Assembly (NCBI GenBank): GCA_950054155.1
Contig: CATLOT010000020.1
Coordinates: forward strand, 1 to 64,000
Source of the DNA: an uncultured Bacteriovoracaceae bacterium
GTDB taxonomy: Bacteria; Bdellovibrionota; Bacteriovoracia; Bacteriovoracales; Bacteriovoracaceae
Direction of reading: 5' to 3'
DNA length: 64,000 nt
Shown here: piece by piece, positions 6,089 to 11,466 of the stretch
Numbering within the stretch: the stretch's first letter is position 1
Layout of the letters: each line of letters opens with the position of its first letter
Program-made: the position numbers and the translations under genes
Notes under the pieces: model-generated
The model's database searches: none
What the model was told of the DNA's origin: nothing
The model's input: the letters and a program-made list of their open reading frames with translations, nothing else

Positions 6089-9000
6089 TTATAAAAATGC
6101 TCCTACAAGATCCACACAGCTATCAGAGCGCACAAAGTCCCCCGGGACTTCTCGCGCGGGAACAATGGCCGCACGCTGACGGTCAGCGGCAGCTGCTGCC
6201 TGAACTCGTTGCTCATGAGTCATGGTATTAAGCTCATCTGCAGGCCCCGGTGTCCATTGACGACCTTCTGAAGCAATCGCATTGTCAGCACTTCTTGGCT
6301 CCACGGCCTGCCCCCATCCTCTTTGTTTAGGATGGTTGGCAAGCTTTTGTGAAAGTGGCTCAAAGAAAGCTGAACGATGGGCCATATCCGTATCAGAGAG
6401 ACCTTCAGCAAGGGCCGGTCGATAGTCATTGATATCAAGACCCAATTCATCACAGAGCTTCGCCAGATCATCATAGGCTTTATCTGTGTTTTGCAGATAG
6501 CTTATATGATCAACCTTTTGAACGGTGCCATCGAGAGGAGTATCTTCATTAATTGCTTTATGAAGAAGTGCTCTGACGAGGCGAATTTGTAGGGCACTTT
6601 CCATCGGATCTCTCGGGGCATTAAAGAGTCTAAACTCAGCTTTTCTAATGCGTGGGTCAGCTCTAAATGTTCTTCTCCATGGGTCCGTTGGTGAATTAAT
6701 ATCAAAGTCATCTGTGAGAAGCTCTTCTGGAATAACATCTTGATAGTAAGCTGACATATCAAGTTGGTTATAACGAGTCTTTCTTCCATAGCGAGTATTA
6801 AAGTACTTATTATTATAGAGAAGCTTCTTAAGCTCATCATCCGTGCCAGTGAAGTTGGCGAGTTGTCTATTGAAGGCGGGATCAATATCAATGGGCTCCG
6901 CTGACTTTAATCGATTCACATACTGGAACATCATACTGATGATCCCACGATGCTCATGAAAAAGCGCCATAAAGCGGCCTACTGCTTTAGGATTATTTTC
7001 AAAGGCCGCAAGGTCAATATTGATGTGCCCTCCCCCGTGCTTAATTGTCGGAAGGATACTATTTTCATCAAAGGCCTTGTAGACAGCTTCCATATCCTCA
7101 ACTTGAGGAACAAATTTTGGTGTCACAAGCTCAATAGAACCGCCACGAATAGAGTCTTCTACAATTTCGCCCGCTTCAGAGTATGAACGGCCAATACCAT
7201 CCCACTCAACAACCCACTTACGGTCTTGAGGGTCTCTAATTTCATACGCGACTTCAAGACCGTGGCCATGGCCTCCGGCATCGATCACTTCTTGGGCTTC
7301 TCCTTCTCCCCCTAGGTTTTTAAGAAGGTCCTCGGCGACATTCTTTAACACCTGCTTGCGCTCATCAAGAGTGAGATCAATTCGAGTCTGTAGCCATGCT
7401 TTCTTATTATCTTGTAAGCGCTCTGGAGAATACTGGGCATCAAGGGCCAGGGGAAACTTACCAGAGTATTCGATACCAAGGTCAATATTATTCACATCCA
7501 AAGCACCAGCAACAACAGGGCGCCCTTCAGGAGGTGAAAAATGAAGAAGGTCATCTGTTTGAGAGGCCATTCTTCTTGGCTTGATATAATTTCTTAATTC
7601 ATCTCCAAGCTTTGTCGACTTCACCCATGAGCGAAGAAGGCTTTTAAGATCGGCCTTAATATTCGCTCCTTCAAGCTCTGCCACCTGAAGGATAAAATCA
7701 CGAGTCAAAGACTCAATAAAGCGCTTCTTACTCGCACTTAAGAAAGGAAGATCAGGGTTCGTCCAGTCCCAAAAAGGAATCATGTAACTCAACTTAAACT
7801 GGCCTGCTTGAATATTCTGGGCAGCTTTTTCAACCTTTTCAAGAGGGACATTAAACTTCCGAGAAACCTCTTCAGCATTGAGACTATATCCACTGCCGGT
7901 ATAGAGAGAGTAATCCCCAATGTCGGCAAGGCCAGAGAAATCATTGGTTGCGACTCTAGCGGCAAGAGTTGTCTGATAAAAGCGCGCAGCTCTAATATCC
8001 TTAGTTCCTGCTCTAAATTCTACACCGTAGTTTTCACTTCCCCAGCGGCTTCTCTCTAGGCGAATAACACCACGACCAGAGTTAAGGCTTTGCAGAGTAT
8101 TGTCATCAAGAACACTCTTAAAGCTCGCTGATTCGATCCCCGTCTTCCCTTGAATACCATCGGCAATAATAAGGGCTTGAATGGCACGATAAAGCTCCGA
8201 GAGCTTCGCTTCATCAAGATTGGGGTGTCTTCTAAAAACCATTCGTTGATGCCCGGGTGCCTGAAAGAGGCGGCCGGCATTTTTAAGCTCGGTTCTAAAC
8301 CACATGACGAACTCTTCAAATTCTCCATAGGTCTGATTAGGACTAAAGTTAATTTCCCATCCTACACTCGTCGCGTGAGCATCCCGGACATAGTTTTGGG
8401 CCTTACCAAATGTGGCCTTCCAGTTATGATAGCCTGAAACATTCTTAAGTTTTTGTCTGTCTGACATCCCTGGTAATTGGGCCTTAAACATTTTCATGCG
8501 CACTGAAGGCTTCATAAAAGTCAAAGGCCTATCATCAGTCATATCAAGGAATTGATTCCACTTAGCTACGAGTTCTTCTGTCGTCACATTTTCAAAGTCG
8601 ATAGAGCGAAAGGGCTCCATATCAATGACCTTGGGATTCCCTTCGTTATCCACAACATCGCGGGCATAATCTATCACAACGCCCTCTTCATTTTTAAAGG
8701 TCCGATAGCCATTGGCATTCTTAACATAGTTAGAGAAGAAATCGAGAAGGAACTCTCTTTGAGAACTCTCCTCCATTCCACTGACCATCTGCTTAAGGCC
8801 TTCTGCTGGAGGTGACATCACTCGCGTAATCAGGCCAGAAGAAGCTTCCTTCTCAGCCCCCCAGGTGACACCAGCGTCCATTCCATCAACGACCAATTCA
8901 CCATCGACCATAACGGCCTTAGCATTAAAAGAGGTCGCCGACTCTTGCAGATCAGCATAGACTTGATAAGCGCTACGCGCCTCTTCATTCGCAACTCCCC

Positions 9001-9091
9001 TAAAGGAGTTATAAGAGCAACTCTCTAATGCCATTCCTGTTACCATCATAGGAATGACAAAGGTCGCTATTTTCTTATTCCAATTTTTCAT
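6089..9091 (-). CDS. Large exported amidoligase-fold protein (putative lipoprotein)
   Basis: A 1000-residue protein with an N-terminal export signal ending MALESCS, an imperfect lipobox with Cys at about 25. The C-terminal region (about 600-850) has the amidoligase (COOH-NH2 ligase) pattern: HGLEVAYE near 607, SIELVTPKF near 655, GGGHINID near 684 where the family usually has GxHxHxD, and KAEFRLFNAPRDP near 817. The N-terminal half seems to repeat this in diverged form: VGWEINFSPN near 247, GHQRMVFRRH near 283 and YGVEFRAG near 357. It follows a secreted protein by 18 bases and faces a papain-like peptidase. An ATP-dependent ligase outside the cytoplasm would be odd, so it may be non-catalytic. 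A GGGAG ribosome-binding site supports the start. Confidence 0.7.
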   Translation of the reverse strand: MKNWNKKIATFVIPMMVTGMALESCSYNSFRGVANEEARSAYQVYADLQESATSFNAKAVMVDGELVVDGMDAGVTWGAEKEASSGLITRVMSPPAEGLKQMVSGMEESSQREFLLDFFSNYVKNANGYRTFKNEEGVVIDYARDVVDNEGNPKVIDMEPFRSIDFENVTTEELVAKWNQFLDMTDDRPLTFMKPSVRMKMFKAQLPGMSDRQKLKNVSGYHNWKATFGKAQNYVRDAHATSVGWEINFSPNQTYGEFEEFVMWFRTELKNAGRLFQAPGHQRMVFRRHPNLDEAKLSELYRAIQALIIADGIQGKTGIESASFKSVLDDNTLQSLNSGRGVIRLERSRWGSENYGVEFRAGTKDIRAARFYQTTLAARVATNDFSGLADIGDYSLYTGSGYSLNAEEVSRKFNVPLEKVEKAAQNIQAGQFKLSYMIPFWDWTNPDLPFLSASKKRFIESLTRDFILQVAELEGANIKADLKSLLRSWVKSTKLGDELRNYIKPRRMASQTDDLLHFSPPEGRPVVAGALDVNNIDLGIEYSGKFPLALDAQYSPERLQDNKKAWLQTRIDLTLDERKQVLKNVAEDLLKNLGGEGEAQEVIDAGGHGHGLEVAYEIRDPQDRKWVVEWDGIGRSYSEAGEIVEDSIRGGSIELVTPKFVPQVEDMEAVYKAFDENSILPTIKHGGGHINIDLAAFENNPKAVGRFMALFHEHRGIISMMFQYVNRLKSAEPIDIDPAFNRQLANFTGTDDELKKLLYNNKYFNTRYGRKTRYNQLDMSAYYQDVIPEELLTDDFDINSPTDPWRRTFRADPRIRKAEFRLFNAPRDPMESALQIRLVRALLHKAINEDTPLDGTVQKVDHISYLQNTDKAYDDLAKLCDELGLDINDYRPALAEGLSDTDMAHRSAFFEPLSQKLANHPKQRGWGQAVEPRSADNAIASEGRQWTPGPADELNTMTHEQRVQAAAAADRQRAAIVPAREVPGDFVRSDSCVDLVGAFL

Positions 9092-9109
9092 ATCATCTCT
9101 CCCAAGGGA

Positions 9110-10141
9110 TTATTTAAAAAAGCAGTTCTTTGTTTTAATCAATTCAAGGCGATCGTCGAGGGCCGCATTGCCACTGGCCTTCGCTTCGAGGTGGCGATAA
9201 AAAGCGGCCTTCTTACTCACCTCTTTTTTCTTTTTAGCATCCTCGGCAACACTCCTGAGCATGCGAGACCACCCCTCTAACTCAACTTCATTGAGATCAC
9301 TCCCAAAGAGTCGCCACAACTGATGAGGGTTTTTAGGATCGAGAACATTGACGTTGCCATTCTTACTTGGCTTTTTAGAAATGAGTTTAATTGCCTCATA
9401 GAGTTCTTTCTGTGCCGGAGAACCATGAGTCGGAATGGCCAAGAAAAGAGCGAAAACTTTTTCATCTTCCTTTGGAAGTTCACTGAGATAATTTAATTTT
9501 TGAGTTGTTAACTTTTGAGACTTAAGATTTTTCTTAATGTACTTCACTACTTCATTTGGTGAACGAGGCACCACAGAATTGAGAATATAAGCGGTCTTCT
9601 CATCCGCTATTTCATCATAGGTAAAGCGAAAGCCTTTCTTTGCAAGTGGTCCACTAATGCAAGCACTACAGGCCATGGCCAGTGAATTATCCACCCCATA
9701 GCGGCCAGCGAGGTAGACAAGAGAATTGACCAGTTCAACAAATTCTTCCTTACTCAACTCTCTTTCGCTCTCACTTAAGAGAGTCGTTAAGCGCCTTTTT
9801 AAGCGTCCATCTGCTCCAGAGCTAATTCCCCTTAGACCGCGGGCCAATTGAGTGCGGTCAGGATTTTCAACCCCCGTGAGATTCTTAAGGGCAAGACCTA
9901 CTACTTGCTCGACCTTACTCGCACTATTTCCCGTAAGGCCAACCGACTGAATCGCTGCGCGCAGTCCGGCCTCAGAAAGAACCACGTCAATGGCTCGAGC
10001 GGCACCACTACCGATAGACTTTTGACTGTCCTTAAAAGACGTCGTTGGAGAAAAGTCGAGATCCTCTCCCATGACGGGACTACTCAACACACACAAGGAC
10101 AAGAGTGTCCCAACCCAAGCATTTACTTTCACTTTCTTCAT
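9110..10141 (-). CDS. Secreted helical protein of unknown function
   Basis: A 343-residue protein when started at the ATG behind the strong site AGGAAGGAAGG. An upstream in-frame ATG would add 24 residues and bury the signal peptide, so I reject it. The signal peptide (MKKVKVNAWVGTLLSLCVLS) ends near VMGEDL. The mature part is mostly helical and has a cysteine pair in AMACSACISGP near the middle. No enzyme motif is recognised. It is the first gene of a two-gene unit with the amidoligase-fold protein and is divergent from the papain-like peptidase. Confidence 0.7.
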   Translation of the reverse strand: MKKVKVNAWVGTLLSLCVLSSPVMGEDLDFSPTTSFKDSQKSIGSGAARAIDVVLSEAGLRAAIQSVGLTGNSASKVEQVVGLALKNLTGVENPDRTQLARGLRGISSGADGRLKRRLTTLLSESERELSKEEFVELVNSLVYLAGRYGVDNSLAMACSACISGPLAKKGFRFTYDEIADEKTAYILNSVVPRSPNEVVKYIKKNLKSQKLTTQKLNYLSELPKEDEKVFALFLAIPTHGSPAQKELYEAIKLISKKPSKNGNVNVLDPKNPHQLWRLFGSDLNEVELEGWSRMLRSVAEDAKKKKEVSKKAAFYRHLEAKASGNAALDDRLELIKTKNCFFK

Positions 10142-10353: not shown

Positions 10354-11466
10354 ATGAGACTATTGGCCCTTGCCCTCACCCTTCTAATAACAAACGCCAT
10401 GGCGGCTAGAATCGTTATAGGAACAAAGTCCCCAAATAGTGGAGAGGCTTTCGAAAAGAACCTCTCTCCCATGGAATCAAAGGCCCTCGTTGCCGATGAA
10501 GCCGACCTTATTGGTGGTTTTAATTACTGGGTCGACTCTATGGTGGCCACACCCAATCAAGAAAATGCCGGCTCTTGCCTCTTTATGAGCCACACGGCCA
10601 GTGTTGAGGCCATCCTCAATCAAAAGGAAGGCTATCGAAAGTATGATCTTTCAGAGCGCTATTTTATGAATCTTTCTAAGGCCAATGTCGGCGATAATCT
10701 TATCGATAATTGGATTACCGATACGATCTATCGTCTCAATGTAGAGCAAAAAGTCTATACCAATGAGGTCTTTCCCTACAAAAAGGATTGGTACAAAATC
10801 GTTGGAGGAACTCGCGTTGATGCCGCACCTGAAGAAGAAGGCGCGTACTATGGCATTAAGGCCAATTGGGTCGTCAACCTCGATCAGCTCACTCATGCTC
10901 CTGCCATTAAAACTCCAGAGTTTAAAAGAGATATTCTCTTTGAAGATGGTAATCGTTGGAATGTGGGAACAGCACCAAGTGATATTGTAGAGACAGTAAA
11001 GAAGGCCCTTGCGACAAAGAAAGGACCGGTTGTCGTGATCTATAACCACACCGGCTTCTGGCATGCCGTCATGGTTGGTGGCTATAACGACACCATAAGA
11101 AATCACGGCTGTCCCTTTGTCAGTGAATTTCCTCACAAAATGAATGCGCGCGCTTTAGAGATTCGCGAGGAAGCAGCCGCACAAACTGATGAGAGTGAAA
11201 GAGCACGTCTAGAAAGAAAGGCCCGTCTCTTTGAAAAACGAGGCAAGCAAGTTGAAGACAGCTTTAACGCTGCAGGAGGCTGCTCCAATCAAGGTGCTTT
11301 CTATGTGCGCGACAGTATCTACTCTGATCCTGCACAACCTCTCTATGACTATGACCCCAATCGCACAGGTGAAGAGCGTCACTTAGGCCCACGTGTCATT
11401 CTTCGTGAGTACGAGTGGCTGCGCCACATGGCAAATCACGTCATGCAAATTTATGTCGCTCAGTAA
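10354..11466 (+). CDS. Secreted papain-like (C1 fold) cysteine peptidase homologue
   Basis: A 370-residue protein, started at the ATG behind AAGGA and directly before a signal peptide (MRLLALALTLLITNAMA). NQENAGSCLFMSH places a Gln (69) six residues before a Cys (75), as in the oxyanion Gln and nucleophile of papain. FWHAVMVGGYND gives the catalytic His (237). The usual Asn motif seems to be FYVRDS, with Asp 320 in place of Asn. A charged helical insert (about 265-300) lies between them. It probably acts outside the inner membrane on peptide or protein substrates. It is divergent from the unknown secreted protein and the amidoligase-fold protein, and overlaps the next gene by 14 bases. Confidence 0.8.
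   Translation: MRLLALALTLLITNAMAARIVIGTKSPNSGEAFEKNLSPMESKALVADEADLIGGFNYWVDSMVATPNQENAGSCLFMSHTASVEAILNQKEGYRKYDLSERYFMNLSKANVGDNLIDNWITDTIYRLNVEQKVYTNEVFPYKKDWYKIVGGTRVDAAPEEEGAYYGIKANWVVNLDQLTHAPAIKTPEFKRDILFEDGNRWNVGTAPSDIVETVKKALATKKGPVVVIYNHTGFWHAVMVGGYNDTIRNHGCPFVSEFPHKMNARALEIREEAAAQTDESERARLERKARLFEKRGKQVEDSFNAAGGCSNQGAFYVRDSIYSDPAQPLYDYDPNRTGEERHLGPRVILREYEWLRHMANHVMQIYVAQ

Follow-up and report, generated by a model that had tools for sequence, protein, structure and literature searches.

The 64,000-nucleotide window analysed here, from an uncultured bacterium of the family Bacteriovoracaceae (assembly GCA_950054155.1, contig CATLOT010000020.1), carries on its minus strand the gene of P0001 (positions 6089–9091), a 1000-residue protein with a predicted export signal, in which the active-site pattern of the glutamine synthetase (GS)-like amidoligases can be traced in both halves. 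The gene is present as a single copy in its own genome. P0001 was tentatively read as an exported ligase with two tandem GS-like amidoligase domains and a peptidase partner, acting outside the cytoplasm and possibly in the prey compartment; taken as a whole, this reading is plausible and falls somewhat short of probable. The interest of the protein lies in the export of an enzyme class that depends on adenosine triphosphate (ATP) while its active-site residues stay conserved. A set of exported amidoligases spread through the lineage, with their catalytic residues conserved and exported peptidases encoded alongside, would imply either ATP-driven chemistry beyond the bacterium's own cytoplasm, plausible in invaded prey, or a new, ATP-free use of the fold.

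The first-pass annotation had described one exported protein with an apparently repeated amidoligase fold over the interval 6089–10141. Two open reading frames, 18 bp apart on the minus strand, were found there, 9110–10141 (343 amino acids, P0002) and 6089–9091 (P0001, identified from its reading frame, Pfam and homologues). The single protein was therefore replaced by two genes, and the motifs, together with an export signal of its own, all lie in P0001; with the coordinates corrected, the observation itself holds.

The C-terminal domain (residues ~530–850, positions 6542–7504) matches PF12224 (Amidoligase_2) in Pfam over residues 583–784, with E=1.4e-5 and 25.5 bits against a curated cut-off of 22. 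In hhalign, the profile of the C-half family matched one built from 19 canonical amidoligases of this phylum, with a probability of 95.8% and E=8e-9. Both results bear out the amidoligase pattern that had been noticed in this region. Conservation was assessed on 44 homologues, which form two deep subfamilies of 33 and 11 sequences. Conserved in both subfamilies are E654 of ELVTPK (residues 654–659, positions 7115–7132), placed on the canonical ElvSP strand by conservation and profile alignment; G686, G687 and H689 of GGGHIN (residues 686–691, positions 7019–7036), the counterpart of GGxHxH; and E819 and R821 of AEFRLF (residues 818–823, positions 6623–6640), on the canonical ExR strand. The counterpart of GxExE is GIEYS (residues 539–543, positions 7463–7477), where the first acid is retained. 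VEWDG (residues 628–632, positions 7196–7210), with E629 and D631 conserved, occupies the site of the canonical D-x-S-L strand, and GHGH (residues 607–610, positions 7262–7273) brings extra histidines peculiar to the P0001 family, H608 and H610 being conserved in both subfamilies.

The N-terminal half (residues 74–390, positions 7922–8872) comes first in the chain and is a candidate amidoligase or GS-like domain on the grounds of conservation and profile alignment; a Pfam search of it gave no match to PF12224 or any other family. Its first motif, GAEKE (G78-A-E80-K-E82, positions 8846–8860), is the counterpart of GxExE, and E80, K81 and E82 are invariant in 44/44 homologues. A long insertion separates it from WEINFSP (residues 245–251, positions 8339–8359), the counterpart of ElvSP, in which E246 is invariant. 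GHQRMVF (residues 280–286, positions 8234–8254) corresponds to GxHxH, with GHQ kept throughout and GHQH in subfamily 2, and VEFRAG (residues 357–362, positions 8006–8023) corresponds to ExR, with E358, R360 and G362 invariant. The last three motifs had been recognised in the first pass as a diverged repeat of the C-terminal set, and they are upheld by their conservation in the 44 homologues and by an in-register alignment; GAEKE had been overlooked.

Conservation across both subfamilies is limited, in the N half, to 15 residues (E80, K81, E82, E246, G280, H281, Q282, E299, G341, E358, R360, G362, K364, R379 and W443), and these contain ExE...E...GH...ExR in the order of the amidoligase/glutamine synthetase active site. 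This ordered pattern was found in 0/200,000 trials when 15 N-half positions were drawn at random, and in 810/200,000 (0.4%) when the residues were shuffled among the 15 positions. A profile of the N core (residues 236–390) was aligned in register with the canonical amidoligase profile, WEINFSP lying over gvEIVSP and GHQ over giHxH, with a score of 26.6 that was reached by 0/150 column shuffles (maximum 22.1, mean 12.7). Against a smaller profile of HxH-only sequences the register was unchanged and the score, 17.7, lay within the shuffle range. Short windows of the N half, aligned separately, put GAEKE over GiExE and VEFR over ExR. The profile signal emerged only once 44 homologues were used and the comparison was confined to the core, so that some choice of region entered into the result; in the first profile test, the whole N half gave nothing against the canonical amidoligases. 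No significant match was obtained when the N and C halves of the P0001 family were compared as profiles, and the halves are thus not a recognisable recent duplication. From conservation and alignment taken together, we infer that the N half is probably a second, diverged GS-like domain.

The export signal occupies residues 1–25 (positions 9017–9091, MKNWNKKIATFVIPMMVTGMALESC) and has a lipobox-like end, as judged from the sequence and from comparison with orthologues. Export was called by a simple signal-peptide rule rather than a trained predictor; by this rule a signal is predicted in 35 of the 42 homologues with complete N-termini, and the other seven are hydrophobic and signal-like by eye. 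The export signal described in the first pass is thus present in P0001 itself and conserved beyond it. The ends of the signals vary, being either lipobox-like (LESC, LPGC, ITGC, IASC, and LYNC in by-eye cases) or of signal-peptidase-I type. Since all complete homologues appear to carry a signal and its end varies, predicted export is conserved across the family and anchoring is not.

In this family the P0001 gene lies next to P0002 and to a divergently transcribed gene on the plus strand (10354–11466, start set by homology) for an exported papain-like (C1) peptidase. The Cys (in NAGSC) and His (in FWHAV) of this peptidase are conserved and Asp stands in place of Asn; its PF00112 score of 16.4 bits is under the cut-off of 20.7. 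A papain-like peptidase of the same family, at 37% identity, lies directly downstream of a distant subfamily-2 gene in L167, and most other subfamily-2 genes adjoin an exported subtilase (one tested: PF00082, E=9e-45). An exported protein-glutaminase (PF18626) is the neighbour in L029, with a similar protein in the same position in L180, and exported BPL_N/amidotransferase-like proteins (PF09825) are the neighbours in L178 and L179. That exported protein-processing enzymes recur beside these genes is the strongest functional clue.

Under the proposed mechanism, P0001 would be exported as a lipoprotein or as a signal-peptidase-I type enzyme. At least one of its domains would be a working ligase, activating a carboxylate and joining it to an amine in the modification of a peptide or protein. 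Ligation would take place outside the predator's cytoplasm, and the neighbouring peptidase would trim or reverse the ligation product. The ATP might be supplied by the invaded prey compartment, which is the less supported step. A wider version, in which bacteria of Bdellovibrionota type use an exported, ATP-dependent ligation system, made up of tandem amidoligases and of amidoligase fusions to ATP-grasp, together with dedicated exported peptidases to modify proteins or cell-wall peptides outside the predator cytoplasm, fuelled by prey ATP, is doubtful at present.

Amidoligases are ATP-dependent and regarded as cytoplasmic. The first-pass annotation had reasoned that proteins outside the cytoplasm have no access to ATP, and had offered either a non-ligase use of the fold or the export of a protein acting in another cell, for instance in prey. 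In both halves of P0001 the catalytic-type residues are the most conserved, an argument against a fold that serves only for binding. Intact canonical amidoligases are also exported in this phylum. Exported fusions of an amidoligase with an ATP-grasp domain of the R2K clade were identified by domain search in the same phylum (L131, L134 and L136), and the D...E-x-N metal-site residues of the ATP-grasp domains look intact by eye. The export of two unrelated ATP-dependent ligase folds in one chain points to a supply of ATP, or of an activated substrate, where these proteins act. An ATP uptake system has been reported for Bdellovibrio in prey (Ruby & McCabe 1986, cited in PMC4834554), which would make the objection from ATP weaker for this lifestyle. 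The term amidoligase was not found in a proteomics study of Bdellovibrio predation (PMC12546842). Of the two uses offered in the first pass, the non-ligase one appears less likely than export of a protein whose site of action lies elsewhere.

Several observations weigh against P0001 as an exported tandem ligase. In the C domain the two acids of GxExE are not both present, the aligned homologues reading G-[IVLN]-E-[YF]-[ST], and the second His of HxH is lost, with HxN across homologues. The N-core match is weak in absolute terms, with a probability of 10%. Subfamily 2 alone gave the N motifs in the expected order in three segments, without a significant score (reached by 11/100 shuffles). AlphaFold2 models of the full protein and of the N half, built with few sequences (6 in the input), had a mean predicted local distance difference test (pLDDT) score of 44.9 and 44.6; structural comparison of the low-confidence full model was uninformative, listing OsmC-like and other chains at Z no higher than ~6 and, within the top 50, none of the GS fold. 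The lipobox in P0001 and several orthologues suggests anchoring in the predator envelope, which it would fit better than entry into the prey cytoplasm. Homologues were found in 54/325 genomes of the phylum (28/165 genera) and in only 30/116 genomes of the family, and the gene is thus not essential for the lifestyle.

Among the other explanations, the one that survives best, and is still unlikely, is that the GS-like fold works independently of ATP and serves as a metal-dependent amide hydrolase or transferase (aminolysis of existing amides), with the extra GHGH histidines helping. It would suit the changes common to the C domains of the homologues (GIEY[ST], GHGH, HxN), the partner proteins, which are hydrolases, and the periplasm, where ATP is not expected. 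However, the N half retains the full canonical set with both acids, and the same phylum exports ATP-grasp domains along with canonical amidoligases. We know of no ATP-independent member of the GS-like fold, and this also counts against such a use. It is improbable that the two domains are remnants, inactive or regulatory, in a protein with a structural or binding role in the envelope or in a surface complex, frequently one that carries a helical-repeat scaffold. The missing second acid of the C domain, the HEAT-like C-terminal extensions of several homologues (with a PF13646 trace in L031), the large size and the lipobox in some homologues would be in keeping with such a role, whereas the concentration of conservation on catalytic-type residues, in both halves and across two deep subfamilies, is unexpected for a scaffold. 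Least likely of all, and quite improbable, is that the amidoligase domain is confined to the C half and that the N-half motifs are coincidental or convergent in an unrelated domain, which would agree with the lack of a Pfam match, the non-significant comparison between halves and structure models too poor to reveal a fold, but not with an in-register N-core score that no shuffle reached or with three separate N segments falling, in order, on the matching canonical motifs.

Some homologues are ~1850–2140 residues long and have an added helical region, which in L031 shows the HEAT-repeat traces. The tail of P0001 (residues 990–1000, positions 6092–6124, DSCVDLVGAFL) has a Cys conserved in subfamily 1, where it is kept even past a helical extension of ~1000 residues (homologues of 1844 and 2020 residues); in the 2020-residue homologue, from L031, it is the sole Cys. 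In the L179 homologue (2118 residues), residues 1–440 form an exported N-terminal extension, of a family without assignment, fused to the tandem amidoligase; comparison gave no support for this extension as a P0002 protein or as a known ligase. Searches for relatives of P0001 in viral contigs, phages, PHROGs and plasmids found none. The L135 contig (G214:C76) reads as an inverted duplicate that probably arose in assembly.

P0002 (positions 9110–10141, minus strand), which lies 18 bp upstream of the P0001 gene and whose length of 343 residues was counted from an internal ATG of its reading frame, belongs to an exported family with no assignment and no Pfam match. In this family a CxxC is invariant and the C-terminus ends in C-x-F (CFFK in P0002, positions 9113–9124); its members adjoin the amidoligase gene in nine of the genomes inspected. 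A near-C-terminal Cys is conserved in P0002 and in the P0001 tail, as well as in exported amidoligases of L093, L097, L098, L103, L105, L127, L128 and L134. A general C-terminal Cys sorting tail was considered and set aside, as a Cys in the last 12 residues occurs in 22/96 exported against 34/301 other proteins (p=0.007), which is too modest a difference.

For comparison with known systems, the amidoligases of the same phylum were surveyed using PF12224. Among the unrelated ones inspected, those of ~310–355 residues and those fused to helicases had no export signal, and many others were exported with an intact GxExE. The helicase fusions (L096, L100 and L101) are cytoplasmic, 780–950 residues long, and show the fold put to another use within the phylum. 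The exported proteins in which an amidoligase is joined to at least one R2K ATP-grasp domain (L131, L133, L134 and L136) are 760–1176 residues long, and their active-site residues look intact.

GS-like amidoligases and their links to peptidases were reportedly described by Iyer et al. in 2009. P0001 resembles the Amidoligase_2 family in a C domain that scores over the PF12224 cut-off, in its ElvTP, GGxH and ExR motifs and in its association with peptidases and glutamine-amidotransferase-like proteins; it differs in being exported and much longer, in having two motif sets per chain, GxEx[ST] in the C domain and the extra GHGH. With the exported single-domain amidoligases of the phylum (among them L043, L055, L091 and L103) it shares the export signal and the amidoligase motifs, whereas these proteins have one domain of canonical GxExE and usually HxH in ~340–420 residues, and could not be aligned to the N half of P0001 by standard search. 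The R2K fusions in L131, L134 and L136 are, like P0001, exported and large, with an amidoligase domain and a C-terminal Cys tail, but their second ligase domain is ATP-grasp rather than GS-like, and their amidoligase domain is nearer to the canonical form. The motif order ExE, E, H, ExR is common to P0001, GS and glutamate-cysteine ligase. Unlike these enzymes, P0001 is predicted to be exported and has no detectable match to either of them in Pfam or among Protein Data Bank (PDB) sequences, in which no relatives with solved structures were found at all. A GS-fold ligase outside the cytoplasm has a precedent in the extracellular glutamine synthetase of Mycobacterium tuberculosis, which shares with P0001 that location, predicted for the latter, and differs from it in being a true GS without a signal peptide, in another organism and with another architecture.

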